The notes under the pieces: model-generated
What the model was told of the DNA's origin: nothing
The model's input: the letters and a program-made list of their open reading frames with translations, nothing else
Database searches by the model: none
Program-made: the position numbers and the translations under genes
Shown here: positions 34,218 through 54,457 of the stretch, one piece after another
Position numbering within the stretch: position 1 is the stretch's first letter
How the letters are laid out: every line of letters starts with the position of its first letter
Assembly: GCF_037055275.1 (NCBI RefSeq)
Contig: NZ_CP146343.1
Coordinates: 1,336,501 to 1,400,500, forward strand
Origin: Pseudomonas sp. ML2-2023-3
GTDB taxonomy: Bacteria; Pseudomonadota; Gammaproteobacteria; Pseudomonadales; Pseudomonadaceae
DNA length: 64,000 nt
Direction of reading: 5' to 3'

Positions 34218-34315
34218 ACAAAAACCTCGAAGACGCTTAAAGGACTGAATCATTAAGACCGCGCTTAATGCTCAACTGTTCGCCGTTATACTCGCCGCTC
34301 TGTTCTGGAGCCACC

Positions 34316-36817
34316 ATGATTTCTTTGCCGATTGATGAAGTTTTACCTGCGCTGCGCCTGGCTTTGTCCGAGCGCCATGAAGCCGTGCTTGAAGCGCCCC
34401 CCGGCGCTGGTAAAACCACCCGTGTTCCGCTGGCCCTGCTCGATGAACCGTGGCTCGCCGGTCAGAAAATTCTGATGCTCGAACCCCGGCGTCTTGCTGC
34501 CCGTGCAGCCGCCGAGCGTTTGGCCAGTGAACTGGGTGAAAAAGTCGGCGAAACCGTGGGCTATCGGATTCGTCTCGACAGCAAAGTCGGTCCCGATACC
34601 CGTATTGAAGTGGTCACCGAAGGCATCCTCACCCGCCGCCTGCAGCACGACCCGGCGCTGGAAGGGGTAGGCCTGGTGATTTTCGACGAGTTCCATGAGC
34701 GTAGTCTGGATGCCGACCTGGCGTTGGCCTTGAGCCTCAATGGCCGTGAGCTGTTTCGCGACGAGCAACCGCTGAAAATCCTGCTGATGTCCGCCACCCT
34801 TGAGGGCGAGCGCCTGGCCAGCATCCTGGGCGATGCACCGATCCTGCGCAGTGAAGGACGCATGTACCCCGTAACGATGCGCTGGGGGCGGCCCTTTGTG
34901 CCCGGCGAGTTTATCGAGCCGCGAGTGGTGCAGACCGTCCTCGATGCCATCAACGATGAAAGCGGTAGCCTGCTGGTGTTCTTGCCCGGGCAGGCAGAGA
35001 TTCGCCGGGTCAATCAGCAATTGGCTGACGCGCTGGGCTCACGCAGCGATATTTTGCTGTGCCCGCTGCACGGTGAGCTGGATCTGGCGGCTCAGCGGGC
35101 GGCCATCGAACCGGCGCCCAAGGGCCTGCGCAAAGTGGTGCTGGCCACCAACATTGCCGAGACCAGCCTGACCATTGACGGCGTGCGCGTGGTCATCGAT
35201 GCCGGGCTGGCGCGGGTGCCGCGTTTTGACCCGGGCAGCGGCATGACCCGTCTCGATACCCAGCGTATCTCCCGTGCCAGTGCCACCCAGCGCGCTGGTC
35301 GTGCCGGGCGACTGGAACCCGGTGTGTGTTACCGCCTGTGGTCAGAAGACCAGCACGGGCAACTGGCCGCCTACGGCAGTGCTGAAATCCTTCAGGCAGA
35401 CCTTGCCGGGCTGGCGTTGCAGTTGGCGCGCTGGGGCGTGACGCCGGAGCAATTGATCTGGCTCGATGTGCCTCCCGCGGCAAGTTATGCACAGGCTCAG
35501 CAATTGCTGGAACGCCTGGGCGCCTTGCGCGACCGAAAACTCACGCCGCATGGCGAAACAATGGCCGAACTGCCTGCGCACCCGCGTATCGCCCATCTGT
35601 TACTTCGCGGGCAAGACTTGGGCCTGGCTGACATGGCCTGCGACGTGGCGGCGCTATTGGGTGAGCGCGATATCTTGCGCGGCGCCGGGGCGGATGTGCA
35701 CAGCCGCCTGGCCTTGCTCTCGGGTGAAAGCCGCGCCGCACGGGGCGGTCAAGGAGGCGTGCAGCGCGCCAAACAACTGGCCCGTCAGTATCGGGGCTAT
35801 TTGCGGGCCAAGGCCACTCAGCCGGTGACCGACCCCGATCACCCGCGCTGGCTGGGCGCCTTGCTGGCGCTGGCCTACCCCGACCGCATTGCCCAGCAAC
35901 GCAAGCCCGGTGGTGCGGAGTATCGGCTGGCCAATGGCCGGGCAGCGCTGTTCAGCGAAGTCGACGGCCTGATGAAGCAGCCCTGGCTGGTCATCGCAGA
36001 CCTGGGCAGCCGTCAGGGCCAGCGCGAAGAGCGTATCTACCTGGCCGCCGAGTTTGATCCCGCGCTGCTGGATGGCGTGCTGAGTGAGCAGGTCAGCGTT
36101 GTCGATCAGCTTGACTGGGATGAGCGAGAAGGCGTGTTGCGTGCTGAACGCCAACGCAAAGTGGGCGAACTGGTACTCAGTCGCGAACCGTTGACCGGTC
36201 TGGACGAGGCGGCGCGCACGCAAGCGCTGATCAATCTGGTGCGGCGCAAAGGCCTGGAGTTGTTGCCGTGGACGCCCGAACTGCGTCAATGGCAGGCGCG
36301 AGTGGCCCTGTTGCGTCAGCTTGAAATGCAGGCTCAAGGCCACAGCGAATGGCCGGACGTCAGCGATACTGCGCTATTGGCCGGGCTTGAGGAGTGGCTG
36401 GCGCCCTACCTGGGAAGGGTTTCGCGGCTGAGTCATTTTGCCGGCCTGGACCTGTCGAGCATTGTGCATAACTTGCTCAAATGGCCGCTGCCCCAGCGCC
36501 TCGACGAACTGGCGCCCCATCACATCAAGGTGCCGTCGGGTTCATCGGTGCGGTTGGACTACAGCGAGCACCCACCGATTTTGGCGGTACGCCTGCAAGA
36601 ACTGTTCGGCCTGGCGGATACCCCGCGCATTGCGGGCGGGCGTCAGGTGGTCAAATTGCACCTGTTGTCGCCTGCACGGCGACCGGTACAAGTGACCCAG
36701 GATCTGGCCAACTTCTGGCGCAGCACCTATGCCGAGGTGAAGAAAGACCTCAAGGGGCGTTATCCCAAGCTATTCCATAAGTTGGACCCTTGGGTCGATT
36801 CGCTTAACAAGAAATGA
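34316..36817 (+). CDS. hrpB: ATP-dependent helicase HrpB
   Basis: HrpB is a DEAH-family SF2 helicase of unclear RNA-related role. The 833-residue protein has Walker A 'APPGAGKTTRVP' at about 27-38, 'FDEFHERSLDADLAL' (DEFH box), 'LLMSATLEG', 'ATNIAETSLTIDGVRVVID' and 'QRAGRAGRLEPG' (motif VI), and an HrpB C-terminal domain with 'WPLPQRLDELAPHHIKVPSGS' in blocks. ATG 34316 follows CTGGAG. Its stop marks the left edge of the mobile island. Confidence 0.94.
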   Translation: MISLPIDEVLPALRLALSERHEAVLEAPPGAGKTTRVPLALLDEPWLAGQKILMLEPRRLAARAAAERLASELGEKVGETVGYRIRLDSKVGPDTRIEVVTEGILTRRLQHDPALEGVGLVIFDEFHERSLDADLALALSLNGRELFRDEQPLKILLMSATLEGERLASILGDAPILRSEGRMYPVTMRWGRPFVPGEFIEPRVVQTVLDAINDESGSLLVFLPGQAEIRRVNQQLADALGSRSDILLCPLHGELDLAAQRAAIEPAPKGLRKVVLATNIAETSLTIDGVRVVIDAGLARVPRFDPGSGMTRLDTQRISRASATQRAGRAGRLEPGVCYRLWSEDQHGQLAAYGSAEILQADLAGLALQLARWGVTPEQLIWLDVPPAASYAQAQQLLERLGALRDRKLTPHGETMAELPAHPRIAHLLLRGQDLGLADMACDVAALLGERDILRGAGADVHSRLALLSGESRAARGGQGGVQRAKQLARQYRGYLRAKATQPVTDPDHPRWLGALLALAYPDRIAQQRKPGGAEYRLANGRAALFSEVDGLMKQPWLVIADLGSRQGQREERIYLAAEFDPALLDGVLSEQVSVVDQLDWDEREGVLRAERQRKVGELVLSREPLTGLDEAARTQALINLVRRKGLELLPWTPELRQWQARVALLRQLEMQAQGHSEWPDVSDTALLAGLEEWLAPYLGRVSRLSHFAGLDLSSIVHNLLKWPLPQRLDELAPHHIKVPSGSSVRLDYSEHPPILAVRLQELFGLADTPRIAGGRQVVKLHLLSPARRPVQVTQDLANFWRSTYAEVKKDLKGRYPKLFHKLDPWVDSLNKK

Positions 36818-36954
36818 TTGACGCATTCAGGCTTCTGCTTCCACATAACGAGCAGCGTTGACTACGACGCGTTCACTGTCCCAGGTTGCTTGAGCTCTGG
36901 ACGAGGAAGTAACTGCACTGAGTTGAGGTGAATCGAAAACGCGTACTCGCTAAG

Positions 36955-36983: not shown

Positions 36984-38453
36984 ATGCCATACAGCAACCC
37001 CTCTCATCGAAGTCGCCTGACCACGATTGCGCGTATTTCCGATCCCTTTTCAAACGTGTCAACGCTTGAAGCCGCTGGCGCCCGCGCGGAGCCTCTGACC
37101 GCAGACCAATCACTTGTCGTTTATGAGTTCAACTCGATCTGCGAACCGGGAAATTCAGAGCTATACCACCTTCCATTTTTGTTTCATGCCAACGGAGACC
37201 CTTGGCATGAGGCAAACTCATACGTGCTGAGTGTGATTCGTGATAGCCCAGTTAGGGTTAGCCGCACCGATGGGATAAGAAAGCTAGCAAGTAAGTTGTT
37301 AGATTATTTGAGGTTTTGCGAAGACAATGAACAAGAATGGCTCGACTTCTCGGGTACTAGGATGTCCATGCACCCAACTACCCGTTACTTTCATAGGCTG
37401 ATAACGGAAGGTAAGAGAAGTAATTCTGTAATCAATCAATATACCGGGGCGGTATACGGTTTTTATCAATATGTCAGCGAGAACTGGCATCCATTAGATA
37501 TGAATAAGGTTGATACGGTCAAGTACGTCAAAATGATGGTGGAGACGTCAACAGGTACCAAGTCATTCGAGGTAAGGAAAAGAGGGCAGACAAAAAAGGT
37601 GCCACGCAGGGCGATGCCGCAAATTGGATACATAAGAGAGGATGGCGAGGATTTGCGGCCTCTGCATAATTCTGAACTTCAGGTCTTGATGCTATCTCTG
37701 AGTGATGGTGAAGTTTGGTCTGCTGTAGAGCGGCTTATTGTGCATGTTTCTCTTCTTACTGGGGCAAGAAAACAAACAGTTTTGACATTGCGGCTTCGGC
37801 ACCTGAAAAGATTTCGCCCTGAATTTCTGCAAAAAGATAATACTTATAAACTTTTTGCCGGGCCAGGAACCGGAATCGACACGAAAAATAACAAGCTGCA
37901 AGACCTCTATTTTCCTAGGCCGCTCGCCGAAGAATTATGCAGGTTAATTGCTAGCCCGTTGATGCTTGCCCGACAGAAAAAATTTCAAGCAAAGTTGGCA
38001 AAAGAATTTCCACAGGTGCAAATGACAGGCGATGAAATGTACGTATTTTTATCTGATCAGGGTAATAGCTATTACATGGCTAAGGATGATCCCCGGTATA
38101 CCCTAGTGAAATCGCCTCAGTCCGGGCAGGTCGCAGATACGATTCGACGCAAAATAAGACGTCTTGATATTAAAAACTTTCCTTGCGATTTTACCTGCCA
38201 CTGGCTGAGAGCAACATACGCCTATATTTTATATCAAAGGCTGAAAGCTCTCGTATCTAAAGAGTTGTTGCCGTCGGGGGATATCATCGATTTCATACAA
38301 TCCAGAATGCATCATGAGGCAAGAGAGACTACGGAGAACTACTTAAAGCTCTTTACAATGACGCATGAGAAAGTGCTCGTACAGGAGTTTTGGGAGTATA
38401 GGTTGTTTGAAGGTGCGTACGAAATATCAGGCGGAGGCCTGTCCAATGCATGA
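36984..38453 (+). CDS. Tyrosine recombinase, GmtY-like (first gene of the module)
   Basis: A 489-residue site-specific integrase with a complete active site: R262 in 'LLTGARKQTVLTLR', H406-x-x-R409 in 'CHWLRATYAYIL', H444 in 'RMHHEARE' and nucleophile Y453 in 'TENYLKLF'. The N-terminal ~200 residues are the core-binding region. Size and position fit the recombinase GmtY of gamma-mobile-trio islands (recalled name, not searched). The stop overlaps the next gene by 8 bases. AGGTGA precedes the ATG. Confidence 0.82.
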   Translation: MPYSNPSHRSRLTTIARISDPFSNVSTLEAAGARAEPLTADQSLVVYEFNSICEPGNSELYHLPFLFHANGDPWHEANSYVLSVIRDSPVRVSRTDGIRKLASKLLDYLRFCEDNEQEWLDFSGTRMSMHPTTRYFHRLITEGKRSNSVINQYTGAVYGFYQYVSENWHPLDMNKVDTVKYVKMMVETSTGTKSFEVRKRGQTKKVPRRAMPQIGYIREDGEDLRPLHNSELQVLMLSLSDGEVWSAVERLIVHVSLLTGARKQTVLTLRLRHLKRFRPEFLQKDNTYKLFAGPGTGIDTKNNKLQDLYFPRPLAEELCRLIASPLMLARQKKFQAKLAKEFPQVQMTGDEMYVFLSDQGNSYYMAKDDPRYTLVKSPQSGQVADTIRRKIRRLDIKNFPCDFTCHWLRATYAYILYQRLKALVSKELLPSGDIIDFIQSRMHHEARETTENYLKLFTMTHEKVLVQEFWEYRLFEGAYEISGGGLSNA

Positions 38454-40374
38454 GGATTACGTGCAGCGTGCAGACTTAATTCACATCCCACCGTCAGCGT
38501 TTCTGGAAGATTTTTCTGAGCCTGAGAGGCTTCTAGTTAGATTGACAAGGTCGGTCAAGAAAAAAGGCTTAGATTTTGGAAGTTTTGCGTATGCTGATAC
38601 TCGGGCAGATTTGAATGTGCACGAGGATCGTGGCGAGTATGTTGTTCTTTCATCTTTTGTTGAATCTCGCCGGGAACTCATTCTTGCAATCATACAGAGC
38701 TTGTTTACTCTTCGTGAAGAAAGCGTGCTCCAAAACTTCGTACGCATACGGCTATTCATTCGATGGCTGAATAGAGAAGGCTTTGTGAGGCTGTTCGAAA
38801 GCGAGGAGGAAGCGCAAAGAGCGTATGTTGGATACACGGCTCACCTTATACATAGGCTTCATACTGGTGGGCTTAAGCCGCGTACTGCTGCACATTACCA
38901 AGAAGGTGCTTGTTCCGTTATTAAAGCAGCATTTCCCCAGACCTACCGACATGTCGTATCGGGAGTCACAAAAATTTCGGGAGTGACACAACCTGTTGCT
39001 CCTAGTGACGATCATATCCACTTTTATAGAGATGTATGTCTCGCTCTGGCTCGACAATGCAGTGAGTTCGTGTTGAACAAACGACCTTTCCCATGCGTGG
39101 TAAATATTCGCGATTATGAAGTGGTTGTTTTTCACTCTGTAGTAGGCGTTTCGAGCCCGTATAGACCTCCTATAGACGTTTATAATGCCGCGGAGCGGCG
39201 TATCGCTACGCTCGATGAATATAAGGCTAAATTGCTTGAGAAAAACATTGAAGTAAAAGACAGGATCCTTAAGCACGGCATAATGGATGCTCAAAAAACC
39301 TTGAGCAGAAATAACCGCGATGAACGATCTCGGCAGCGTCTTCGCATTGCATCCTTGGCAGTCAAGGCGTATGCGTGCCTTCTGCTCTTAATTACCGGGG
39401 CTACCCCTACGGAATTTTCTCAGTTTTTATACGCGGATGCCCTGCAAGTTAATAAATCGCCGTTAAAAAAAGAATTGTCGGCGGTGAAGTTTAGGGCAGG
39501 TGGGAAAGTTACAAATTATAATGTTGGTAGAAAAAATGGGCTGTCTATTCTCCAGGACTATCTCAAATTGCGGGAGTGGTTGCTAGACGGTCGGAGCTAC
39601 GATAAGCTTTTTTTTACGGTCTCTGAACTGCGTAATCCATCCTACAAAGAGCTTGACGCTTTGAGGGATTTTCCAACTAGCGATGCGCTACAGACGTTCT
39701 ATCGTACCCTTCATGCGGGGTTTATAGATCCTAGTATTCCAATCCTTACAGTGAGGGAGATGCGAAGACATAAGAGCGTCACCCAGCATATGGGGGGGTT
39801 TTCCGTATCTACAGTAGCGAATTCTCTGAATCATACAGAGACTATGAACCTAGGTCGGTATTCTGGAGGTACCCTCGAGCATCAAAAGTCAGAGCTTTCC
39901 AAATACTGGGAGGCTGTTCAAACGGCTGCTGCATCAATTAAAGAACAATCCGAGAAGGCGGATCAGCTGATACCTATCGCCAGCGGCCAATGCGAACAAT
40001 TCGGCGCTGCTTCGCCAGCACCTCAATTTGCGTCGAGTATTTCCATACTACCGGACTGCCAAACCCAGCACGGATGCTTGTTTTGTGTTCACTATGTGTG
40101 TCACTCAGATGAGACTGACATAAATAAATTGATGAGTTTGCAGTACGTAGTAAATGCTGTACGTCGTTCTGCGCCAGATATGGAGCATGCTGAATTACTA
40201 TACTCGGATTTGTCTGCAAGGATTGATTATATCCTTAACGCTCTTGCGGAACGCGGCGATTCGGTTGCGAAGATTGTTGAAAAAGTAAGAACTACTGTGC
40301 ATGTCTATGGTGTATTAACCCCTTTTTGGGAAACGCGCTTGAGTCGCTTTGAAAGGCTAGGAGTTGTTTTTTGA
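38446..40374 (+). CDS. Recombinase-like protein with a degenerate active site and Cys cluster
   Basis: A 642-residue protein, second in the module. Its C-terminal half resembles a tyrosine recombinase, but the first catalytic Arg is missing ('ITGATPTEFSQF' where GAR is expected) and HxxR reads R-E-M-R ('TVREMRRHKS'). The last His and Tyr keep normal 9-residue spacing ('LNHTETMNLGRYSGG'). A cluster C-x5-C-x2-C-x4-C ('CQTQHGCLFCVHYVC') near residue 545 may bind zinc. The likely role is structural or accessory. ATG 38446 has GGAGG about 8 bases before it, inside the previous gene. NCBI names such as 'VPA1269 family' may apply; I am unsure. Confidence 0.75.
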   Translation: MHEDYVQRADLIHIPPSAFLEDFSEPERLLVRLTRSVKKKGLDFGSFAYADTRADLNVHEDRGEYVVLSSFVESRRELILAIIQSLFTLREESVLQNFVRIRLFIRWLNREGFVRLFESEEEAQRAYVGYTAHLIHRLHTGGLKPRTAAHYQEGACSVIKAAFPQTYRHVVSGVTKISGVTQPVAPSDDHIHFYRDVCLALARQCSEFVLNKRPFPCVVNIRDYEVVVFHSVVGVSSPYRPPIDVYNAAERRIATLDEYKAKLLEKNIEVKDRILKHGIMDAQKTLSRNNRDERSRQRLRIASLAVKAYACLLLLITGATPTEFSQFLYADALQVNKSPLKKELSAVKFRAGGKVTNYNVGRKNGLSILQDYLKLREWLLDGRSYDKLFFTVSELRNPSYKELDALRDFPTSDALQTFYRTLHAGFIDPSIPILTVREMRRHKSVTQHMGGFSVSTVANSLNHTETMNLGRYSGGTLEHQKSELSKYWEAVQTAAASIKEQSEKADQLIPIASGQCEQFGAASPAPQFASSISILPDCQTQHGCLFCVHYVCHSDETDINKLMSLQYVVNAVRRSAPDMEHAELLYSDLSARIDYILNALAERGDSVAKIVEKVRTTVHVYGVLTPFWETRLSRFERLGVVF

Positions 40375-42437
40375 ATAAGAAGTTTTCATCCTCGGGCATA
40401 TTATACGCAGCCAAAGGCTTGGATATGAAGAACAAGCCTGATGTTGCATGCGCAAGCGGTAAGGCACCAAGTAATTGTTTTGTTTTATGTCGAGATGGTG
40501 ACGGCCTGGCCACCGCCGTGTATGGAAATAATATTTGGGATTTTAATCCGTACAGGCTGTCGGCGGTTCATATATGCAAGGTAAATTTTGCCAAGGTTTT
40601 CAAGGGCGAAGGCGAACACGAATTGCGCTTAATAGATGAGGCGAAATATATAATGTACTCATTGATTTATTACGGCGGAGGTGGACGGACCGGGGCTTTG
40701 AGCGCTACTACTCTTGGTTTGTATTGGGTGCATGTGCTGCGGGGAGCGCTGCGGTTTTGCTATGCTCAGCGCGCTAAACCCATGGTAGGGATTATCACAC
40801 TGGGCGAGTTGTTTACTATTCCAGTTTATCTTGCTGCATTCTTGCGCGAATTGAACCCGTCCTATCACAAAGTTACATCTGCATTTCTAAGTCAAATGAT
40901 AGGTGTCGGGGCGCGGCATCTGGGTTATGAAGTTGTTAATCCTCAAGCTCTTAAAATCGTCCGGCCGAAGAATAAACAACACCCCGTTATTCCCACAAGA
41001 TTTTACCTTCAGATTATAAACGTTACCGGCGCTTTGCTCGATCAGATTTATCCGAATATTAAAGAGCTCGATACATTGATTTGTAAATTCTCCGATGAAC
41101 ATTACGGCATTGGGAGAGGTACACAGAAATCAAGGGGCTTAGGTGGGAAAAGACACTATCGTCCAGATTTGCACATGGCTATCAAGGAGCATGGTTTGCA
41201 CGATTTGTTCAAGGGGGAATTTGAGTGTCAATCTCGGTTGGTATTTCAAAGAATCATTTTGAAACTTCAGTATGTTATGAAAACTGTAATCCAGTTGTAT
41301 ACCGGCATGCGGGAGCAGGAAGTCATGCGCATGTCATATAATTGTATAAGTGAGGTATCGTATCGTACTCCGTTTCAAGACCCGAAGCGTATCAGTACCG
41401 ATCTTGGGCAATGCGTGAGCGTACTGTCTACGACGACCAAGTATTCTGGATATAAAATGGAAGGAAGGTGGCTTGCCCCCAAGGAAGTCACAAGGGCTGT
41501 GGAAGGCGCACAGGCCATTTGCAGAGGGTTGGCGACCTTATATGGAATAGACGTTGGTGATGAATGCCCACTGTTTCTTAGTCCTTCGGTGATCGGATTT
41601 ATAAGAGGGGCGAAAAAAGTAGCAGTTGCTAACTTTGTATCAGAAAAGACCCAGCTTGCTGGCTTATCTTCGATGCTTATTACCGCTGAGGATTTAGCTG
41701 AGCTCTCATTAACCGATCAGTCTCGTGACTTTTGGAATGAACCTGCTTACCAAGTTGGTCAGCCATGGCCGCTGACTGGACATCAATATAGACGCTCGCT
41801 AGCGTTTTATGGCAGTAGTAGCGGCTTCGTCTCTCTTCCAACGCTCAGATCTCAGTTTAAACATTTGTCTTTAGCAATGGCCCGATATTACGCTAACGGG
41901 TTTAATAAGTTGCGCACGATGTTCGGGTACTATGATCAAGGTAGAGGAGAGTTTGTCTTGCCGAAAAACCACATTGCATATGATTATCAGATGGCTATAC
42001 CAATGTCAGTTGCTAATCAATTAATCGCAGACCTTCTGCATTCTGATGCCCCTCAGTTTGGCGGAGTCGGAACTTATGTGGAAAAGCAGCGTGGAAGAGT
42101 TCTCAGTGGTGAAATTAGTGTAGAGGAACTTCGAGCGGATACTCAGCGCAGAGTCAAGAACGGTGACATAAGCTTTCGCGAGACGCTCTTGGGTGGATGC
42201 ACTAAGTTTGGTCGCTGCAATTCTTTTTTGCTCGGCGATTTTTTGAGTTGCCTAACGTGCGAGAGTGCGGTGATAAAGTTAGAAAGGATTGAAGTCGTGA
42301 TATCGGATAGTCGTTCCGAATTGTTGATGTATCCACAGGCTTCTGGCGAGCGGCAGATAGTAGAGAAAGAAATTGAAAGACTATCCGACTTTTTGCGTCT
42401 AAAGACCACTGAGCGGGTTGGGGTAGAACTAGTATGA
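40371..42437 (+). CDS. Tyrosine recombinase, GmtZ-like (third gene of the module)
   Basis: A 688-residue recombinase with an intact active site: R314 in 'YTGMREQEV', H471-x-x-R474 in 'TGHQYRRSLAFY', H498 in 'QFKHLSLAM' and Y507 in 'ARYYANG'. Near residue 610 lies another cysteine set, C-x5-C-x10-C-x2-C ('GGCTKFGRC', 'LSCLTCES'), possibly zinc-binding. The start is TTG 40371, overlapping the previous stop (TTGA), with AGGAG 8 bases upstream; ATG 40425 is the alternative. It corresponds best to the integrase GmtZ of gamma-mobile-trio islands (recalled). Confidence 0.78.
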   Translation: MNKKFSSSGILYAAKGLDMKNKPDVACASGKAPSNCFVLCRDGDGLATAVYGNNIWDFNPYRLSAVHICKVNFAKVFKGEGEHELRLIDEAKYIMYSLIYYGGGGRTGALSATTLGLYWVHVLRGALRFCYAQRAKPMVGIITLGELFTIPVYLAAFLRELNPSYHKVTSAFLSQMIGVGARHLGYEVVNPQALKIVRPKNKQHPVIPTRFYLQIINVTGALLDQIYPNIKELDTLICKFSDEHYGIGRGTQKSRGLGGKRHYRPDLHMAIKEHGLHDLFKGEFECQSRLVFQRIILKLQYVMKTVIQLYTGMREQEVMRMSYNCISEVSYRTPFQDPKRISTDLGQCVSVLSTTTKYSGYKMEGRWLAPKEVTRAVEGAQAICRGLATLYGIDVGDECPLFLSPSVIGFIRGAKKVAVANFVSEKTQLAGLSSMLITAEDLAELSLTDQSRDFWNEPAYQVGQPWPLTGHQYRRSLAFYGSSSGFVSLPTLRSQFKHLSLAMARYYANGFNKLRTMFGYYDQGRGEFVLPKNHIAYDYQMAIPMSVANQLIADLLHSDAPQFGGVGTYVEKQRGRVLSGEISVEELRADTQRRVKNGDISFRETLLGGCTKFGRCNSFLLGDFLSCLTCESAVIKLERIEVVISDSRSELLMYPQASGERQIVEKEIERLSDFLRLKTTERVGVELV

Positions 42438-42871
42438 GTAAAGAACCCCAAAGCGGTTTATTACTTTGTTTTGAGGCGTTGGATCGATTGATTGCGGCGC
42501 AACCCGTAAAATCCAGATTTGTAGGGTTGTCTTTAAGTAAGCTTACGGCAAGTATAGTTAGCGAAGAGGCGGGGTATGATAGAGGATATCTTAAGCGCTC
42601 ACGCGCCGCTCATCTTCCGCTACTGGCGAGAATTGATGCTTTACGCATGAGTGCGTCTAAAACTAAAACGTCATCAAGTGAGAGTACGCTGCAGTCATTG
42701 AAAAAAAAGGTACAGAATCTTGAGCAGCAGCTTATTGAAACCTCGTATCAGCGTGATCGGGCTCTGGCTCAAAATCTTAAACTTTGGGAGCGTATGAGGG
42801 TATTAGAGCAATCCAAGTCCGGCCGAATCGTGGCGCTGGGAGGTCCTAAAAGAGGTACTACCAATCGCTGA
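42434..42871 (+). CDS. Small coiled-coil protein, GmtX-like
   Basis: A 145-residue basic protein, fourth of the module, overlapping the previous stop as ATGA. The N-terminal half reads helical with a pattern like a small DNA-binding fold ('LTASIVSEEAGYDRGYLKRS'), followed by a coiled coil ('LQSLKKKVQNLEQQLIETSYQ' region, about residues 90-130). It likely binds DNA or bridges the recombinases; this is inference. The position after the recombinases matches GmtX (recalled). The 230 bases after it are AT-rich and hold no gene. Confidence 0.7.
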   Translation: MSKEPQSGLLLCFEALDRLIAAQPVKSRFVGLSLSKLTASIVSEEAGYDRGYLKRSRAAHLPLLARIDALRMSASKTKTSSSESTLQSLKKKVQNLEQQLIETSYQRDRALAQNLKLWERMRVLEQSKSGRIVALGGPKRGTTNR

Positions 42872-43101: not shown

Positions 43102-43317
43102 TTATCGGCTGTCAGGTAACAAGCATCTGGGATCACACCCTAGACTCTCCGCAATCTGATAGAGCTTCTCTACCGTAATGTTTGCCTCGCCCCGCTCAAT
43201 CCGGCCCATATAGCTGCGATCAACTTTGCATACAAGTGCAAGCCCATCTTGGGATATGCCTTTTGCCTTCCTTGCTTCCCTCACTTTTTTCCCTAACGCC
43301 TTCGCCAAATCGCTCAT
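43102..43317 (-). CDS. XRE-family HTH regulator
   Basis: A 71-residue protein that is nearly all one helix-turn-helix domain ('KKVREARKAKGISQDGLALV', 'RSYMGRIERGEANITVEKLYQ'), like phage and restriction-modification control repressors. It is divergent from the winged-helix/helicase genes, with 100 bases between starts that contain inverted repeats, so it probably controls both itself and them. Confidence 0.85.
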   Translation of the reverse strand: MSDLAKALGKKVREARKAKGISQDGLALVCKVDRSYMGRIERGEANITVEKLYQIAESLGCDPRCLLPDSR

Positions 43318-43320
43318 AGC

Positions 43321-43417: not shown

Positions 43418-44017
43418 ATGAAACATGATTCATTCGAGTTTGACAGGCAGCTGTATGACCTCCTCTGCCATGAACACCATCAAAGTTTCACGATCCGGCA
43501 GCTCCGGGATGCCTACGTGCTGACTATGGAAGGAAGCCCGAAACTCGCTGCAGTTCGGATCTACGTGTATGAGCAGATCCGGCGGCTGGTGCGTGCCGGA
43601 TGGGTGGCCAAGGCGCCTATGCTTCGTAAGCGTGGCCAAGTCTATCAAGTCTTAAGCAAGCCTCCTGGCATAGACCTCATGCTGGTTGCATCTCGCTTCC
43701 GATGTGCAGACATCTCAGACCCAGTTGTGGGGGGGCATCACGCAAGTGACAATACAATTGATCCATCAGATCCAATTTTGCCAATCGCTGATCCGGCGGT
43801 AGCCCATAGCCGCTTAGAGGAAATGCTGAAGGAGACTCGCCTAGACCTTCTTTCCTCAATGGGAGAAACAGAACGTTACAAGCAGCTCTTTGAGGAAATC
43901 CCCCATTTGAAAGGGCTTCTTGAAAACGCTTATTACGAGGTTCGAGACCGCTGCTCCCGCCTGTTGGGTCATCTCCGCGCGCTAGAGACGACACTCAAGG
44001 CTGTGACCGCGGTATGA
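43418..44017 (+). CDS. Winged-helix-like protein of unknown function, helicase partner
   Basis: A 199-residue protein I do not recognise. Residues ~8-80 read as a winged helix ('LYDLLCHEHHQSFTIRQLRD', 'YVYEQIRRLVRAGWVAKAPM', 'KRGQVYQV'); the middle is Pro/Asp-rich; the C-terminal ~70 residues are helical and probably a coiled coil ('SRLEEMLKETRLDLLSSMGE', 'RCSRLLGHLRALETTLKA'). Its stop overlaps the helicase start as ATGA, so the two are made together. The ATG has only a weak ribosome site. It may read DNA ends or steer the helicase; this is inference. Confidence 0.68.
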   Translation: MKHDSFEFDRQLYDLLCHEHHQSFTIRQLRDAYVLTMEGSPKLAAVRIYVYEQIRRLVRAGWVAKAPMLRKRGQVYQVLSKPPGIDLMLVASRFRCADISDPVVGGHHASDNTIDPSDPILPIADPAVAHSRLEEMLKETRLDLLSSMGETERYKQLFEEIPHLKGLLENAYYEVRDRCSRLLGHLRALETTLKAVTAV

Positions 44018-45408
44018 GCATGGGACTTCGCACATGGCAGGATCAATGCAAAAACACGGCGTTGGCTCAATACCTTGAGACGCCCCATTTTTTCTGTCAG
44101 GCCACTCCCGGGGCCGGTAAGACCAGGATGGCGGCTGAACTTGCAAAAGCGCTGCTGGATCAGGGCAGAATTGACCTGGTTTTGTGTTTTGCTCCATCAC
44201 GCCAAGTGGTTGAAGGCTTCCGGCGTACTTTTTCTGATGTGCTGTCGAGACGACTCGATGGGCTGATTGGCGCCGTCGGCGCTGTGTGCACCTACCAAGG
44301 GATGGAATACCGGGATGAGACCTTTTGGAAGCTGTTCGATGATTATCGTGTGTTCGCTGTGTTTGACGAAATTCATCATTGCGCTGGCCACGATGCACTC
44401 TTAAGCAATGCTTGGGGGCAGCGTATAATTCAGCGCGTCCAGGACAGGGCTGCGTACACGCTAGCGCTTTCTGGCACGCCTTGGAGGTCCGACCAAAAGG
44501 CGATAGTCCTGGCGCGCTACTCGACTCCAGAAGGCAACCTTATTTGTGACTACCGTTACGGTCTTGAAGAGGCGATCTCGGACGAGGTATGCCGATCACC
44601 GCGAATAGTTATTTTGGACAATACAATGGTCAGACTCACAGAGGCCATTGAGAGTGATAATACGGTTACTGTTTTCCCCAACATCGCTAGCTTGCTTACA
44701 GACTCGCCAGTTACCTATGAAAGCCTGCTGTTCCACGAAGATGTCCTGAGACAGCTTTTGCTATTAGGGTGCCGGAAGCTCAAGGAAATTCGTAACGTGA
44801 AACCGGACGCTGGCGGGCTTGTGGTGGCAACAAATATCGAACACGCTCACCAAGTCGCAGCGATGCTCCGACTTGAAGGTGAGAGCTGCGATGTAGTCAC
44901 AAATAAAACCCCAAATGCTCAGCGAGTGATCAACGATTTCAGGCACAGCAATCGGCCGTGGATTGTGGCTGTTGGAATGATTAGTGAGGGTACTGACATT
45001 CCGAGGCTTCAAGTGTGCTGTCACCTAAGCAGGATCAGGACTGAGCTTTATTACAGACAGGTCTTGGGCCGGATTCTGCGTCGTTCCGCTAGTAATGACA
45101 CAGAGGCCTGGCTGTACGTCTTGGCCGAGCCTTCGCTGCAGCAGTTTTCTGAGCGGGTTGCAGACGATCTTCCCCGCGACGTCGCGGTGCTGAACTATCT
45201 TCAGGGTGTCTCAGAGGAGGTCGCCGCTAGCCCAGTTGAGAACTCGGCTGACCAGTACAACTGTCACCCTGTGACGCCGTTCCAAGGCGAGTGCTTTGAG
45301 CGCGAAAGCCAACAGTTGCCGGATGAGATCTATAGCTACGATGTTGGCCGAACCTACGAGCTCAACTTCTCTCAGCATTACCGGACACAACTGCTTCGAG
45401 TTTGCTAA
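44014..45408 (+). CDS. DEIH-box SF2 helicase
   Basis: A compact 464-residue superfamily 2 helicase. Motifs: Walker A 'ATPGAGKTRMA' (30-40), 'DEIHH' (118-122), 'SGTPWR' (153-158), then a helicase C domain with 'LVVATNIEHAHQVAAML', 'VGMISEGTDIPRLQ' (motif V) and 'QVLGRILRR' (motif VI). No nuclease, methylase or large accessory domain is visible, unlike type I restriction or HamB proteins. It is coupled to the winged-helix gene and converges on the UvrD-like gene with 97 bases between. A defence role is inferred from context. Confidence 0.82.
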   Translation: MSMGLRTWQDQCKNTALAQYLETPHFFCQATPGAGKTRMAAELAKALLDQGRIDLVLCFAPSRQVVEGFRRTFSDVLSRRLDGLIGAVGAVCTYQGMEYRDETFWKLFDDYRVFAVFDEIHHCAGHDALLSNAWGQRIIQRVQDRAAYTLALSGTPWRSDQKAIVLARYSTPEGNLICDYRYGLEEAISDEVCRSPRIVILDNTMVRLTEAIESDNTVTVFPNIASLLTDSPVTYESLLFHEDVLRQLLLLGCRKLKEIRNVKPDAGGLVVATNIEHAHQVAAMLRLEGESCDVVTNKTPNAQRVINDFRHSNRPWIVAVGMISEGTDIPRLQVCCHLSRIRTELYYRQVLGRILRRSASNDTEAWLYVLAEPSLQQFSERVADDLPRDVAVLNYLQGVSEEVAASPVENSADQYNCHPVTPFQGECFERESQQLPDEIYSYDVGRTYELNFSQHYRTQLLRVC

Positions 45409-45505: not shown

Positions 45506-47290
45506 CTACTCGGCTGCGTCGTAGTCAAAGACACATGTGAACAGTGCCTCTGTAGCCGCATAGTGCCCATAGTGCCCTTGGGGGCGTCCGCTCTCAGAAA
45601 TCAAATGTAGATTCTTGCGGGCACGGGAACCTACGACGTAGAGGAGCTTGTTCGCGGCATCCAGGCTTGCTGCCTCGGTGAAATGAGGCACCATCCCCTG
45701 AAGAAGGCCGAACGCGATGACCACATCGTACTCGGCACCTTTTACCCCGTGGATCGTCGAAACGGTGATACCAGTCCGCTCGCGAAATACCTTCCTGAAG
45801 AAAGAGATATCGTTGATGTACGGGGCCCCGTCCTTTTGGAGCCTGTCGATCCGAGATAGTGAGCTGCGAAAGAACGCATCGCGGTGCTCCATTAATGCGG
45901 GGAAGCTATGAAGGGCTACCCCGAGTCGTTCAAGCAGCGCGGTGAAGGCTTGGTCAAGGTAGGCAATCCCATCCATTTCGGAGATTGAAATTGAGTTGCA
46001 TTCCCTCAATAGGAGCCGCTGTGTCAGGCGCGATGTATCAACGCCCAAATCACCCAGGTCGCTGATCACATCTCTGGCCCATCGCATGCGACGAACAAGC
46101 ATCTTCGGCGATGACTCAGTCAGGATGATTTTCGAAACCTTGAACCAGAAGTTGTCTATATCGTTACTAAAGGGGACTAGACCAGGGCCGTCAAACTGCT
46201 GATCCGGAAGCATCCTTACTAGATGCCGCGTCGTCGATGCCAATAAAATCCACCATGGGGCGAGCACGCAGATCTCCTCAGGAGGATGCCCGGCAGCAAG
46301 GCTTGCTTGGATCAGTCGTACTAGCTCGTCATGCAAATTGGTGAGTGTTACGTGCTGGTTGTACGAAACCTTGCTTGGAAACGACGCATCCGATCCCGCG
46401 CTCTCGATTGATGTCGGATAAACGCTGAAATTCGAGAAGTGGGAAATGATCCTATTACTCGAACGGTAATTCCGGGTAAGCGCCATTTCTCTTATCGGGA
46501 TTCCAGCTTCGGCACGAAAATCAGCCACCGGAACTGCGTAGCCACCAAGCGAGCCGTAGATAGCTTGGTTTGGATCGCCTACGATGAAGGTCTTCGTTCG
46601 CCCCGCTCCGGCACGCAAAATAGCGGTAAGAAGGCCATATTGAATTTGTTTCGTGTCCTGATACTCGTCTACCAGAACATATGAGAAGACCGAAGCGAGA
46701 ATTGATGCAATATGCTTTTGATCACTCATCAGGACCTGCGCATACCAAAGGATCAGCTCGAAATCGATCTGACGCGCTTCGCCGAGCTCGCGAAAATACT
46801 CACCAAGAATTTTATGTAGCGTTTCATGCTTCCAAGCATCTTTGCATCCTAGGTGATAGCCCGTTTTGCTGAAGTAATAATCGCAATCCCAGTGCGTGAT
46901 CTTTGGGTAGGGCGCGCATAGCCTATCGAGCATGAGTTCGCGGTCGTGTCTGTCTAGGACTCGATAGCCGCGGGAAAGCTCTGGAAGGTAGATGCCATAT
47001 GGCTTAATGATCCACTCGAGGCAAAATGAGTGAATGGTCCCGATCCACAGCTTTGACGTGTCAACACCGAGACCTTCAATGCGCTCCTGAATTTCATCTG
47101 CTGCGCGGTGCGTATAAGTAATCGCCACGACAATCCGCTTGTCCGTGGCCCGCGAAAGCTCATAAGCGATCTTATAGGTCAACGTCCGCGTTTTTCCGCT
47201 CCCAGGGCATGCGATGAGGAATACGCTCGAAGGCTCCTCGATTGCGGCAGACTGCTCGGCGTTCAATTCACGGGAATCCCAGGCGAACAT
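45506..47290 (-). CDS. gajB: UvrD/Rep-like SF1 helicase, GajB-type (Gabija)
   Basis: A 594-residue SF1 helicase with Walker A 'ACPGSGKTRTL' (27-37), 'GTIHSFC', 'VDEYQDT' (207-213), 'VGDPNQAIYG', 'LTRNYRSS' and 'STIHGVKGAEYDVV'. It is shorter than UvrD/PcrA and starts in the stop codon of the upstream OLD nuclease gene (TGATG). An OLD-type ATPase/nuclease followed by a UvrD-like helicase is the definition of class 2 OLD and of the Gabija anti-phage system; GajB there responds to DNA ends and depletes nucleotides with GajA. It is somewhat longer than the Bacillus GajB. Confidence 0.82.
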   Translation of the reverse strand: MFAWDSRELNAEQSAAIEEPSSVFLIACPGSGKTRTLTYKIAYELSRATDKRIVVAITYTHRAADEIQERIEGLGVDTSKLWIGTIHSFCLEWIIKPYGIYLPELSRGYRVLDRHDRELMLDRLCAPYPKITHWDCDYYFSKTGYHLGCKDAWKHETLHKILGEYFRELGEARQIDFELILWYAQVLMSDQKHIASILASVFSYVLVDEYQDTKQIQYGLLTAILRAGAGRTKTFIVGDPNQAIYGSLGGYAVPVADFRAEAGIPIREMALTRNYRSSNRIISHFSNFSVYPTSIESAGSDASFPSKVSYNQHVTLTNLHDELVRLIQASLAAGHPPEEICVLAPWWILLASTTRHLVRMLPDQQFDGPGLVPFSNDIDNFWFKVSKIILTESSPKMLVRRMRWARDVISDLGDLGVDTSRLTQRLLLRECNSISISEMDGIAYLDQAFTALLERLGVALHSFPALMEHRDAFFRSSLSRIDRLQKDGAPYINDISFFRKVFRERTGITVSTIHGVKGAEYDVVIAFGLLQGMVPHFTEAASLDAANKLLYVVGSRARKNLHLISESGRPQGHYGHYAATEALFTCVFDYDAAE

Positions 47291-49428
47291 CAGGCAATGC
47301 CAACCATGAACGAATTAATGGCATCGCCTGGTAGCGCGAGGGCGACAGCAGCTTTTAGGAAAACCAGATCGATTTCGCCGCGTTGGAAACGCTCAACCTC
47401 ACCCCTCAGGAGTGTTAGTCGTGGCTGTGCTGAAGGATCGGCATGGATTTGGCGGGCAACTCGATACTGTAGGATTCTGGCGAGCAGCAGAGGGGACATG
47501 TGCCCATGCGCGAATTGAAGGGCCTGCAAGATGTAGGGAGGGATCGCTACCTGATGGTCCAGCTCTTCGGCGAGCATGATTGCAAACCAGCCTTTCCCCT
47601 CATACTCAGCCATCAACAGCGCACGAAAACCTACTAGGTGAGGTTGACCCGATCGAAGGGCTTCCACCGCCTCTTTGATAGTGTGCGGCGCTATATAGAC
47701 CTTGCTCGCTGCTCGAGCGAACGCCTCTTCGTTGCCCGCTGATACGAGGTCAACTTCAAAGGTGTGTGGTGCATAGAAGGCCGAGATCCAAGGGTTTCCA
47801 GCGACAAAGGCATCGAGACCAACCTTGCGTTCGACGCCAGCTTTTTGGGAACCTATCGCCTTGCGTTTCTTGCTTGCCAGAAACTCATGATCAGTGGGCT
47901 GCGGCGTCACATCAAAGAAGGTGGTATCAAGGTCAGTAACTATCGCACAGCGCTTGCGGATTCGGAGGTCGTGAAAAAGGACTGCGACGTTTTTGAACCC
48001 CGTGCTGCGTATGTTGATGACACTAATACCCAACTCATCAACGCTCAGCCCAAGCACCTTTTTCACCAATATCGGGATCAGTATCTCCTCCGCATCGCCT
48101 TCAACGAGTAGTACGCTTTTAGCGAAGAGCAAATTACTGCGGACAGCATCCAGATATCTCTGGATGCTTCTCACCTCTGATGGCTCAAGCCCCGTAGCGG
48201 GTTGGTAAGCCTCGCAATATGAGCCTTGCCGCCCCAGAATGTTGACGTTAGTGACATTGCTCACTTCGGAGATGTGGGTCGAATGCGTTGTGTAGATAAT
48301 CTGGGCATCGCTGTAGGAAATACGGTCGAACAGAGTCTTCTGGATATGGGTGTGAATGTGCGCTTCGGGCTCCTCGATCAGTAGAAAGTTGGCAATGGCA
48401 AGCTTCTCACGCTGATACTTGAACTCAAGAAGCTTCAGCGTCAGGTAGATGAGGTTTGCTCCGCCCAAGCTCAGCTCGTGAATACCACCCTCATACCCAT
48501 CATCGGCCTCGCCTACAAAAAGGCGCAGGGACTGAAATAATTTTTCTGCCTCATCTGGTAGGTCAGATTTAATCGAAAGCGAAGCAGGCGAGTAGGTTTC
48601 TCCGGCCGCATCTTTGATCGTTTCGCGAATGTGGTTACGAACCGACTGCACATCTTCGAGTCCTTCGATAGAGGCATTCAGGTCTCTGACCATTTGGGTT
48701 ATAGGAAGCATCGACACTGGATCTATCTCCCCACTCTTACTCTTGAGTAGCGCAAACAACGGGTTCGTTCGGTTGTTGTGAAACTCGGCAACGACGTCCC
48801 GGAGGGCTTGTATGAAGGTCAGTGACACTTCTTTCGTAACCGAGAGGAATCCAGGTACTTTAGCCCCGATCTGAGGGAATTCAGTTTCAGCACTGAAAGT
48901 ACACGTTTCGAAATTACCCACAATCGACTGGTAGACGGAAGGGTCGCTGAAGTCGGCGCTGCTTCTTCCCGTGAACACAGTTTCGTAGTCATCGATCGTG
49001 ATGGTACTGCGTATTTCCGCGAGCACCTCATCATCAAAAATATCTAGAGCAGCCAGCTTGAGCCGGATCTCCTTTTTCGGACGGAAGATGAGGTTATAGG
49101 TTGCCTTCGCTAGCGGTCCGTCTTCTAGCGCAGCGGTGCCGTGAAGAAATAGCGCCTGAACGGCTTCGTCGGCGCTGATCTGTTCAAACTCAACACTGAT
49201 AATGATCCAGTGACCTCGCCATTCACCGAGCGATCGGCAGAAGTCGGACTCCTCCAGTCGATAGGCTGCACGCACCATGGTGTCATCCAATAGTAGACGG
49301 ATTGCGCGCAGGATATTGGACTTACCTGAGCCATTTTCGCCGATGATGGTGTTGACGCCCCGCTGAAACTTTAGCGTTGTGTTGCTGAAGTTTCGGTAGT
49401 TCACCAAAGTCATTTTGGAAATGTGCAT
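47290..49428 (-). CDS. gajA: OLD-family ATPase with TOPRIM nuclease domain, GajA-type (Gabija)
   Basis: A 712-residue protein: an ABC-type ATPase with Walker A 'GENGSGKSN' (30-38), signature 'LSLGGANL' (319-326), Walker B 'LLIEEPEAHIH' (349-359) and H-loop 'THSTH' (381-385), followed by a TOPRIM domain with E443 ('LLVEGDAEE') and D499/D501 ('VTDLDTTF'). GajA is a nicking endonuclease held back by nucleotides. A further ~200-residue C-terminal part makes it longer than the founding GajA. ATG 49428 has GGAG upstream; a start at 49446 lacks one. It is followed by gajB with a one-base overlap. Confidence 0.82.
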   Translation of the reverse strand: MHISKMTLVNYRNFSNTTLKFQRGVNTIIGENGSGKSNILRAIRLLLDDTMVRAAYRLEESDFCRSLGEWRGHWIIISVEFEQISADEAVQALFLHGTAALEDGPLAKATYNLIFRPKKEIRLKLAALDIFDDEVLAEIRSTITIDDYETVFTGRSSADFSDPSVYQSIVGNFETCTFSAETEFPQIGAKVPGFLSVTKEVSLTFIQALRDVVAEFHNNRTNPLFALLKSKSGEIDPVSMLPITQMVRDLNASIEGLEDVQSVRNHIRETIKDAAGETYSPASLSIKSDLPDEAEKLFQSLRLFVGEADDGYEGGIHELSLGGANLIYLTLKLLEFKYQREKLAIANFLLIEEPEAHIHTHIQKTLFDRISYSDAQIIYTTHSTHISEVSNVTNVNILGRQGSYCEAYQPATGLEPSEVRSIQRYLDAVRSNLLFAKSVLLVEGDAEEILIPILVKKVLGLSVDELGISVINIRSTGFKNVAVLFHDLRIRKRCAIVTDLDTTFFDVTPQPTDHEFLASKKRKAIGSQKAGVERKVGLDAFVAGNPWISAFYAPHTFEVDLVSAGNEEAFARAASKVYIAPHTIKEAVEALRSGQPHLVGFRALLMAEYEGKGWFAIMLAEELDHQVAIPPYILQALQFAHGHMSPLLLARILQYRVARQIHADPSAQPRLTLLRGEVERFQRGEIDLVFLKAAVALALPGDAINSFMVGIA

Positions 49429-49838
49429 AATTCTCCAGAGCGCCAACGCTCATGAACAGTCTTGTCTGTTTGTGAACGATGGTAGCGTGAGGGAGCATCG
49501 TATTCCCACAGAAACCGCTCACAGGCGCCCACCAACAGGCGCAGGGATTGCGCTGTTCCGCAATAGCTTGATCTCATGGCTCAACCTCAGATGTTAACGA
49601 GGCAAATGTGATGCAAGACTCACGAGTTTTAGAACTCTTCTTTCGAGCCCCGGTCGAGTGCTGGAGTACAGATCGCCAGTTTGGATTTGGACATACAATC
49701 ACGAGCGATCGAACATGGCCCTCGGAGGCATTCCCCCCCTAACAGAAGTTGGCCCTAGTAGCTTGATCTCTATTTCAGGCGAGTATCAAAAATAGGGGCA
49801 TTATCAGGGGCAGTTTCATAAGGTTTTTTCCTTAAGGC
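49429..49838. other. Gene-free stretch between gajA and cusA
   Basis: 410 bases with no credible gene. It must hold the gajA promoter; an inverted repeat AACAG-TCTTGT-CTGTT (49455-49470) lies 27 bases before the gajA start and could be an operator. The cusA side ends with T/A-rich sequence near 49820-49835 but no clear terminator. It may contain the right end of the island; no copy of the hrpB-proximal sequence was seen here. Confidence 0.4.
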
Positions 49839-52800: not shown

Positions 52801-52976
52801 TGCGGCGCTTGTCCCGGATAAGGGGTGCGGATGATCACTTGCACATCTGAGAGATCCGGCAACGCATCGATCGGTGTGCTCTGTACCGACCAGATGCCCC
52901 AAGCAGTGACGAACAGCGTAGCCAGTAGCACCAGAAACCGGTTGGCCACCGACCAACGAATCAGTGCAGCAATCAT
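49839..52976 (-). CDS. cusA: CusA-type RND copper/silver efflux pump
   Basis: A 1045-residue inner-membrane RND pump that moves Cu(I)/Ag(I) to the outside, driven by protons. It starts '[13 protein letters not shown]', has 12 membrane segments by pattern and the heavy-metal RND marks '[11 protein letters not shown]' and '[13 protein letters not shown]'. Three methionines that form the CusA metal site are kept in context: 'LLYMPS', 'PLEMFET' and 'RIDMLA', which separates it from the Co/Zn/Cd pump CzcA at the window end. The start overlaps the cusB stop (ATGA). Confidence 0.92.
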
Positions 52977-54457
52977 GGCTGGCTCCCCGATTTGTCCAGG
53001 CGCTCGACACGCAAACCATCGTCAGTTTGGCTCACCGCGATCCGAACCTTGTCCCCCGCCTTGAGGCCCTGCATCAGCGCCGGACTGGCGAGAGGAAAAG
53101 TCATCGTCATGCCGGGCATGCCCAGCGTCTTGAAAGGACCATGGGCGAGCGTCACGTCTTTGTCGTTGATCTCAACAATCTGCCCATCGGCCTCATGAAA
53201 ACTGGAGGCTGTTGCGCCGAGTGGTGAATCTTCCTCAGCGCTGGCAACAATGCCTTTAAGACTGGCTTCCGAGTCGAGCAGGAACTGGCCAGACGTAACC
53301 ACTTTCTGTCCTTCTGTCAGACCTTTCACAATCGCCGTCTTGCCATCGCTTTCCTGCCCGAGTTGCACCTCCACCGGGCGATAGCGACCGGCGTCTTCAG
53401 CGAGCATCACCAGGGCGCGTCGGCCAGTGCGAATGACTGCTTCACTCGGCACCCACAACACACTTTCCCCGGTCGAATGACTCAGGCGCACCTGCGCCGT
53501 CAAACCGGGCCTGAGGTGCTCGTCCGGGTTGGGTAGTTCCACCCGCACCCGAAGAGTGCGGCTGTCCGGATTGGTCTCGGGCAAAATCGCGCTGACCTTG
53601 CCTCTGAACGTTGTCCCCGGGAAGGCTGGCAGACGCGCTTCGACCGCCTGCCCCACAGTGATGGCCCCGGCATCGGATTCTGGAACAGCCACGGCTAGCC
53701 ATATACTGCTCAAGCCATTGACCCGTGCCAGAGTCTCGCCCGTCGCCACGGTCATGCCCGCGCGTACGTTCAGCTCTTGCAGCACACCGGCGATGGGACT
53801 GGTCAGGGTCAGATACGGTTGAACCTTACCGCTACGTTCAACCTGAGTAATCAGTGCTGCGGGCATCCCTGTGAGTCGCAGGCGCTGACGGGCCGCAACC
53901 AACAGATCGGCATCCCCGTTACGCCTCAGGGCCAGAAACTCTGTCTGAGCCGCGGCCCATTCCGGCACCAGAATATCCGCCAGGGCGGCATTGGCTTTGA
54001 GCACATCCCCTGGAGCAAGGGCATAGACCCGCTCCACAAAGCCGGCGGTACGGGCCTGAATCACCGCGACATCACGCTCGTTGAACGCCAAGACACCTGC
54101 CACATCTAGGCTGGAATCAAAGACTCCCCGGGTGACCGTCGCAAAACGCAAACCGAGGTTCTGGGTCAGGCTTGGATCGATACTGACGACCGCACGATCC
54201 CCTTCGCTGCTGGCGTATTGAGGCACCAACTGCATGTCCATAAAGGGGGACTTTCCGGGGTTATCAAACTTTTGCTGCGGGTACATGGGGTCGTACCAAT
54301 ACAGAGCCTTGCGTTCACCCGACGGGCTGACACCCCTCTCCTGGGCAGTACTGGATACTCCGTTCATCCGCTGCTGAGCGAACCAGTAACCACCGGCAAC
54401 ACCCAATGTCAGCGAGATGCCTACCAACAATGCCCCATTCCACTTTTTAAGGATCAC
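52973..54457 (-). CDS. cusB: CusB-type periplasmic adaptor fused to a CusF-like domain
   Basis: A 494-residue membrane-fusion protein that links CusA with CusC. An N-terminal membrane anchor is followed by the heavy-metal-binding segment '[19 protein letters not shown]' with '[10 protein letters not shown]' (about residues 53-82), the hairpin and barrel domains ('[18 protein letters not shown]', 'GRVNGLSS'-like region), and from about residue 415 a CusF domain ('[19 protein letters not shown]') with the Met pair that binds Cu(I). In E. coli CusF is a separate chaperone; here it is joined to the adaptor, a form also known in other pseudomonads. Overlaps cusC and cusA by 4 bases each. Confidence 0.92.

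Follow-up and report, generated by a model that had tools for sequence, protein, structure and literature searches.

The DNA examined here is a 64,000-nt stretch of Pseudomonas sp. ML2-2023-3 (contig NZ_CP146343.1, positions 1,336,501 to 1,400,500 of the forward strand; hereafter the window), in which hrpB, the gene for an ATP-dependent helicase, is followed by a recombination module of four open reading frames (ORFs), designated g1 to g4 in order from hrpB (Table 1). The module lies at one end of a genomic island that has entered the 3' end of hrpB. An initial annotation, made from the sequence alone, had described four overlapping ORFs in AT-rich DNA right after hrpB, two of them for intact tyrosine recombinases with a recombinase-like protein between, and these details hold. 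All four ORFs are present; the overlaps, given there as 4–8 bases, measure 8 (g1/g2), 4 (g2/g3) and 4 (g3/g4); the four genes have a GC content of 45.6%, while the 10-kb stretches on either side of the element have 60.6% and 60.4%; and g1 starts 166 bases past the hrpB stop codon. The g1 and g3 proteins each carry the full R/HxxR/H/Y set of catalytic residues. The g2 protein keeps part of this set: the first catalytic Arg is absent (the sequence there is TGATPTE), the box II His is replaced by Arg, and the remaining R, H and Y are retained. A conserved Cys/His cluster is found at its C-terminus. When an AlphaFold2 model of g2 (mean pLDDT 66.8) was submitted to Foldseek, the top 13 matches were all tyrosine recombinases, but these were weak (all E > 0.1, none E ≤ 0.001). 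Sequences resembling the two TAAC-N8/9-TTGAC repeats upstream of g1 are visible in the left ends of many relatives.

Table 1. Features at the hrpB locus (window coordinates).
Feature	Position	Strand	Remarks
hrpB (ATP-dependent helicase), target gene	34268..36817	+	Host sequence up to 36770; frame finished by the element (LFHKLDPWVDSLNKK*)
Left-junction six, CCAAGC	36765..36770	+	Central six of attB, same as native hrpB
Element left end (TATTCCATAAGTT...)	36771..36817	+	Equivalent of SE motif C; encodes replacement HrpB C-terminus
TAAC-N9-TTGAC repeat	36805..36822	+	Putative recombinase arm site and/or promoter element
TAAC-N8-TTGAC repeat	36846..36862	+	Putative recombinase arm site and/or promoter element
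g1	36984..38453	+	IntA/GinA-like tyrosine recombinase, 489 aa, complete RHRY
g2	38446..40374	+	Tfp/GinC-like recombinase-fold protein, 642 aa from ATG at 38446
g3	40371..42437	+	IntB-like large tyrosine recombinase, 688 aa, TTG start, complete RHRY, C-terminal Cys cluster
g4	42434..42871	+	Srap/GinD-like small protein, 145 aa, C-terminal coiled coil
XRE-type regulator, accessory	43102..43317	-	Named from sequence and annotated relatives
Hypothetical protein, about 200 aa, accessory	43418..44017	+	Listed ORF start (43226) overlaps the XRE gene
DEAD/DEAH (ResIII) helicase, accessory	44014..45408	+	63–64% identical in L008, L059 and L054
GajB (Gabija defence), cargo	45506..47290	-	831 bits to PDLC00127
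GajA (Gabija defence), cargo	47290..49446	-	1028 bits to PDLC00072
Metal-efflux cargo, by best family	49839..64000	.	Element runs on past the window to extended position 90157

The element spans 53,387 bp, from window position 36771 to position 90157 of the numbering extended past the window (contig position 1426657). Its right end is followed by CCATGC and then by the displaced tail of hrpB, 53.4 kb downstream on the same contig, and about 1.8 kb further on lies DNA that adjoins hrpB in several relatives with an empty site. It is these empty hrpB sites that fix the extent of the element. A match to hrpB was obtained in 58 of 59 genomes drawn from the genus. Thirty hrpB loci were fetched; in 22 the native junction is present and hrpB continues ...KHYWPDDP... 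in place of the element-encoded end, and in the window and seven others the last codons are replaced by other DNA. A comparison with island-free strains at hrpB had been proposed in the initial annotation, and with 22 of 30 loci empty, relatives do not have the module as a fixed core block. The left boundary is confirmed by nearly identical copies inserted at different places, whose sequences are common from TATTCC onwards and divergent before it (P. lundensis vs P. saxonica; hrpB copies vs plasmid pF007; P. ceruminis vs P. iridis and P. rhodesiae). The left-end motif was present in 29 of the 39 sequences searched, as 16 distinct 48-base tails, and the attL pattern missed genomes G030, G137 and G117. 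Weak matches were ignored in the right-end search, and no right junction was identified for G164, G137, G103 and G074. Two tandem elements within the 53 kb were considered and rejected, since the genome has a single IntA-like match and only one pattern each of the attL-like and attR-like kinds was present. Over its final 1.5 kb (88,662–90,157, extended numbering; compared with L121) the element is 99.7% identical to G217 even though the modules are only 38–50% identical, so that elements sharing this target seem to have swapped left and right parts.

The first 47 bases of the element finish the hrpB frame, so that the host is predicted to retain a full-length HrpB with an altered tail, the left end of the element doubling as the 3' end of hrpB. 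Over codons 2–13 of the 16 distinct left ends, there are 1, 1 and 7 variable sites at the first, second and third codon positions, respectively, and 12 of the 15 distinct codon changes in these codons are synonymous, as against 19% expected for random changes. Since the codon changes are mostly synonymous, the replacement tail is probably selected as protein. Five genomes (P. borbori, P. benzenivorans, G066, G074 and G077; loci L105, L107, L072, L073 and L074) have a second, divergent hrpB within or next to the element; in two it precedes the module, and in the other three, where it shows 67–68% DNA identity, it lies downstream of the hrpB junction by about 8 kb. The left ends of these five genomes are of another type, TATCAC in four and TATCAT in G066. 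A divergent hrpB is also carried by G076, with no element seen beside it.

The initial annotation had taken this locus for a gamma-mobile-trio (GMT)-like island. Its description of a mobile island with defence cargo stands, but the GMT label does not: none of the four proteins matched the NCBIfam Gmt models at E ≤ 1, a result that had been named beforehand as refuting the label. This applies to GmtY (NF040693; control 530 bits in locus L051), to the GmtZ integrase (NF047926; controls 995 bits in L051 and 711 bits in L053) and to GmtX (NF040692; controls 223 bits in L051 and 128 bits in L053). In related genomes the same models find the whole trio in L051, and GmtZ with GmtX in L053, the GmtY of L053 coming from a genome-wide GmtY search in which three of 57 genomes scored above the cut-off (L051, L052 and L053) and the window locus was not returned. 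Profile-profile comparison gave probabilities below 1% for g2/GmtZ, g3/GmtZ and g4/GmtX, and 13% for the g1 family with GmtY, confined to a 41-column H-x-x-R...H...Y patch. A GMT island mobilized by homologues of GmtX, GmtY and GmtZ, or a derivative of such an island with four genes, is hence an alternative to which we attach hardly any probability. The architecture is indeed alike, with two recombinases and a small associated protein next to the defence cargo that is also found in GMT islands, and GMT loci do occur in related genomes. These are built from other protein families, however, and the trios of L051 and L053 consist of three adjacent genes in the order Y-Z-X (GmtZ of 862 and 1028 aa) with no fourth gene between. 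In L052, GmtY is followed by a 222-aa ORF and then by a 1563-aa ORF.

By gene order, catalytic residues, profile comparisons and end structure, the module is assigned to the class of the strand-biased circularizing integrative elements (SEs; PMC9345347, PMC10214605), with core genes intA-tfp-intB-srap, and the GInts (ginABCD). The order catalytic, degenerate, catalytic, small, with overlapping starts, is that of the SE core, in which the genes likewise overlap (Idola 2023, PMC10214605), and on the same comparisons the 642-residue g2 protein corresponds to Tfp/GinC. The suggestion in the initial annotation that this protein may be a fourth constant part of the machinery is borne out. Profile matches were found to the module adjacent to tmexCD (L056) and its Pseudomonas relatives, which are taken as SEs because of the tmexCD neighbour (g2, E 1.5e-12; g3, E 1.7e-35; g4, E 1.8e-12). 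For g2, BLASTP against the tmexCD-type Tfp of L056 gave no match, and the relationship appears at the profile level only. Among the 28 genomes with other modules, neither an SSB gene nor an EttA-type ABC gene was listed beside the module in any, EttA presumably being the ABC gene of the GInt paper.

Likenesses to the described SEs (SE-6283, SE-6945, SE-PaeBT2436; PMC9345347, PMC10214605) include the overlapping four-gene order, IntA and IntB with RHRY, a degenerate Tfp, a small Srap, an asymmetric six-base footprint, target specificity and a GC content below that of the host. The Tfp of SEs has the recombinase fold without RHRY; g2 still has three of these residues, and its model resembles recombinases only weakly. 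Some SEs also carry a copy of the target gene, as SE-6283 does with bcp (Nonaka 2022, PMC9345347), which may be compared with the additional hrpB that accompanies the element in five genomes here. The available parts of PMC9345347 and PMC10214605 mention neither an hrpB target nor an encoded HrpB tail, and at 53 kb the window element is long for the published SEs (median 15.7 kb, maximum 58.5 kb). With GInts (PMC5385486; Tn6571 family in PMC10121019) it shares a four-gene operon at one end, specifying three recombinase-like proteins and a small one, as well as variable cargo, integration at a gene end and a six-nt overlap; defence cargo has been reported for E. coli GInts (PMC10121019). The targets named for GInts in the available text of PMC5385486 are different, namely an ABC-transporter gene, ssb and a ribonucleotide reductase gene. 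Tn554 (TnpA, TnpB and TnpC, as summarized in PMC10214605) similarly combines an ordinary and a large tyrosine recombinase with a small helper and leaves a six-base footprint, but is set apart by its description, having no Tfp counterpart and residing in Staphylococcus and Enterococcus.

A narrower possibility, which overlaps with the class assignment made here, is that the element is strictly a GInt, with 6-nt staggered cuts, heteroduplex repair and an excision able to restore the empty site; we regard it as possible but rather unlikely. The g2 protein matches a subfamily found in other Pseudomonas and on plasmids of Paraburkholderia and Cupriavidus (E 3.3e-75) far better than it does the tmexCD-type Tfp, and since GInts, and no SEs, are reported in Betaproteobacteria in the available text of PMC10214605, these nearer relatives may be GInts. 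GinC is said to be without the first Arg (Bardaji 2017, PMC5385486), as is g2, and attL and attR can be read as an imperfect 10-nt direct repeat (TATCCCAAGC/GATACCATGC, 7 of 10 matching), where GInts have imperfect flanking direct repeats of 10–17 nt (PMC5385486). Gene order speaks for the SEs: the degenerate gene is second here, as in SEs, and GinC, with GInts compared by description only, is presumably the product of the third gene; the SE and GInt orders are stated to differ (PMC10214605). The six-base marks considered below also bear on this alternative.

The genus survey covered 199 genomes, of which 44 gave an IntA-like match at E ≤ 1e-15. From 50 match rows 40 regions were fetched, those left out being the window's own, G004:C81, G177, G192:C1:987454 and six rows below 71 bits (one of them inside a fetched region). 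Sixteen survey modules, the window and 15 further loci, make up the window's clade, with 34–67% identity per protein, and because these 15 loci carry the same kind of module the array is not a chance arrangement. The complete ordered set of four was detected in 14 of these 16 loci, the window included. In G032, g3 is truncated and g4 was undetected; in G164, where the contig stops at this point, g4 was undetected as well; G030 and G103 have a split g3. The hrpB gene lies upstream of 13 of the 16 modules (in G103 this is a second hrpB, about 1 kb away), the exceptions being G137, which is sited elsewhere, and G030 and G117, which are cut or disturbed at the left. An overlapping set of 20 named loci came from a scan of genome contigs with an alignment (a single-sequence scan of these contigs gave none, and no loci were found in the viral contigs scanned for the module), and 17 of them have hrpB upstream; one of the remaining contigs begins inside g2, and the P. 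ceruminis and P. saxonica copies are sited elsewhere. These two species and the plasmid copies are the known exceptions to hrpB targeting.

The six bases at each junction were then compared among the copies. The native six of hrpB in the 22 empty loci is CCAAGC in 12, CGAAGC in seven and one of three others, once each. In hrpB-sited copies the left six equals that of the local hrpB. The left and right sixes differ in 11 of 12 chromosomal copies, and in 11 of 12 the right six is unlike every native hrpB six seen; the exception is G031 (CCAAGC), with a native hrpB six on both sides. Both junctions are on one contig in seven of the 12. A 22.5-kb element (ptxD, Pycsar) occurs with the same right end next to different sixes, GCTCAC in G032, CCTGAC in G160 and CGAAGC in four plasmids. 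CGAAGC, a native hrpB six, is the right six of all five plasmid copies with a readable right end, which represent about three independent insertions (CP046903 has two candidate right ends, and the second, where the megablast match stops, was used). The right six of G032, GCTCAC, recurs as the left six in two plasmid copies from S. rhizophila, one being 100% identical to G032 over 2758 bp. Likewise, the right six of G030, CGGGTG, is the left six of a copy on the 4810-S13 plasmid, which matches the G030 module contig at 99.85% over 2749 bp and the G030 hrpB junction at 100% over 135 bases. Of the six distinct sixes found to the left of plasmid copies, two thus recur to the right of a chromosomal copy, both times of a near-identical element; when random hexamers were drawn, 24 of 200,000 trials gave at least two exact matches over the full set of 72 left/right pairings. 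The marks correspond to the published SE signature, the left six of the donor appearing at the right of the recipient, and this suggests shuttling between hrpB and plasmids in both directions. For the strict GInt alternative the marks are a difficulty, as heteroduplex repair should give mixtures, and what is seen at the five plasmid right ends, and in both plasmid-to-hrpB cases that can be traced, is the left six of the donor.

The 22.5-kb element, with ptxD for phosphite use and Pycsar defence, lies beside an integrase gene on the plasmids (L157, L158, L159 and L160), the hosts of which are P. aeruginosa (cystic-fibrosis isolates) and Stenotrophomonas, and it is also found at hrpB in Pseudomonas chromosomes. 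In P. ceruminis, the copy (L113) has the left six CAGCGC, one base off the right six of G004 (CAACGC, L128), and the same element left end; this is perhaps a homologous donor site.

Taken with the gene comparisons, we consider it highly probable that the module drives a 53,387-bp island of the SE/GInt class, inserted site-specifically in the last codons of hrpB, by a copy-out route that leaves six-base marks. In such a scheme, the catalytic IntA and IntB, Tfp as a degenerate partner and Srap as a small auxiliary would act jointly on both ends, and a single strand would be exchanged between them; Tfp would bind DNA as a partner without catalysis. Copying-out would yield a circle bearing the six bases that adjoin the donor copy on its left, and this circle would in turn be copied into a new attB, with the recipient's own six then on the left and those of the donor on the right. 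All that follows the module (Gabija, heavy-metal efflux) would be cargo or accessory. The comparisons establish the genes, the exact ends, the target, the differing sixes with their two plasmid matches and the conservation of the encoded tail; that one strand is favoured, that the element is copied out, what each protein does and that the copy in the window is still active are what we infer.

Integration at the 3' end of a gene, with the gene end replaced, is common among integrative elements, and the locus could accordingly be viewed as an ordinary integrative (mobilizable) element that a single recombinase cuts and pastes, with the other genes as passengers. Against this, the four genes stay in order wherever the contig reaches, G032 excepted, and the left and right sixes differ in nearly all chromosomal copies. 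Published knockouts likewise speak against it: all four gin genes were required in a GInt (PMC5385486), and intA, intB and srap in SE-6283, where complementation restored srap only and tfp could not be deleted (PMC10214605). A cut-and-paste element of this kind appears very improbable.

A further reading goes beyond the class assignment, and we lean only slightly towards it. The hrpB-specialised elements would form a third branch bridging SEs and GInts, cycling between chromosomal hrpB and large plasmids, with a donor mark at each hop recording the last transfer. The host would be spared by a replacement tail, which most members encode inside their recombination site, or by a complete second hrpB, carried by others. 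Both this and the SE/GInt-class copy-out interpretation are held slightly less firmly because five right junctions (G004, G217, G117, G077 and G030) are on contigs separate from the left ones, the pairing there being inferred, and because four of the six plasmid left sixes (GGTGAC, TGGATT, CCTGGA and GCAAGC) equal no chromosomal right six. Several other observations weigh on the same side. The element of pF007 and the S. rhizophila plasmids is also present in G160, with CCTGAC as its right six there, equal to no plasmid six seen. The right six of the window, CCATGC, has no donor among the copies seen; it is one base off the CCAAGC of hrpB and could be a mutated hrpB six. Megablast gave no plasmid copy of either the module or the right end of the window element, and in the 30 kb fetched of the 4810-S13 plasmid no right end of the G030 element was found. 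Judged from their genes, the copies in G032 (g3 truncated, g4 undetected) and G030 (g3 split) look inactive now. Finally, the terminal inverted repeat (TATTCCATAAGTTGGACC vs TATCACCTATGTCCAATC) is weak, with 10 of 18 positions matching and no run longer than 8 in the alignment; those of SEs are imperfect and 13–19 bp long (PMC10214605).

The element is an hrpB-specific island of the SE/GInt class, which is a known class, and a tempting misfiling as GMT is corrected. In one open-access library, no description of a genomic island or integrase at the helicase gene hrpB in Pseudomonas was found. An SE survey could not identify the ends for most SE core genes in Pseudomonas (PMC10214605), and the genus now gains an element of this class with exact ends. 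The plasmid-matched six-base marks are evidence, at the sequence level and in natural isolates, of the one-way transfer that experiments with Vibrio-type elements had shown, and they suggest the direction of plasmid/chromosome exchange for defence and metabolic cargo; if the bridging branch is real, they are a natural record of the last transfer. The need for four proteins, one with a degenerate active site, becomes testable in this genus with a known target.

The defence-type genes reported downstream of the module proved to be the Gabija pair gajA/gajB (45506–49446). Between these and g4 are three genes that the initial annotation did not mention, for an XRE-type regulator, a protein of about 200 aa and a helicase, and this stretch (43102–45408) is possibly a defence or element-control unit. 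The three were considered as an extended core and rejected, as the window, G032 and G160 are the only ones of the 16 survey stretches, several of which end soon after g4, to have all three behind the module. The same series is also found behind the module in plasmids L008 and L059 and in L101, and is annotated in CP146204, with parts in L109. The metal-efflux set comprises a CusA/CzcA-type RND pump, a CusB-like adaptor (below the model cut-off), a CDF transporter, a heavy-metal two-component pair, a TolC-like protein and a second RND adaptor. Past the window, the 10 ORFs scanned in L043 include the end of an RND pump, an OprD porin, transposases, CopD, a CusS-like kinase with a response regulator, a cation efflux protein and a copper-binding protein. 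Elsewhere in Pseudomonas, tmexCD-SE-type modules occur within or next to genes that we read as comM-like (L086, L091, L093, L094 and L095) or take to be umuC-like (L087, L089 and L092).

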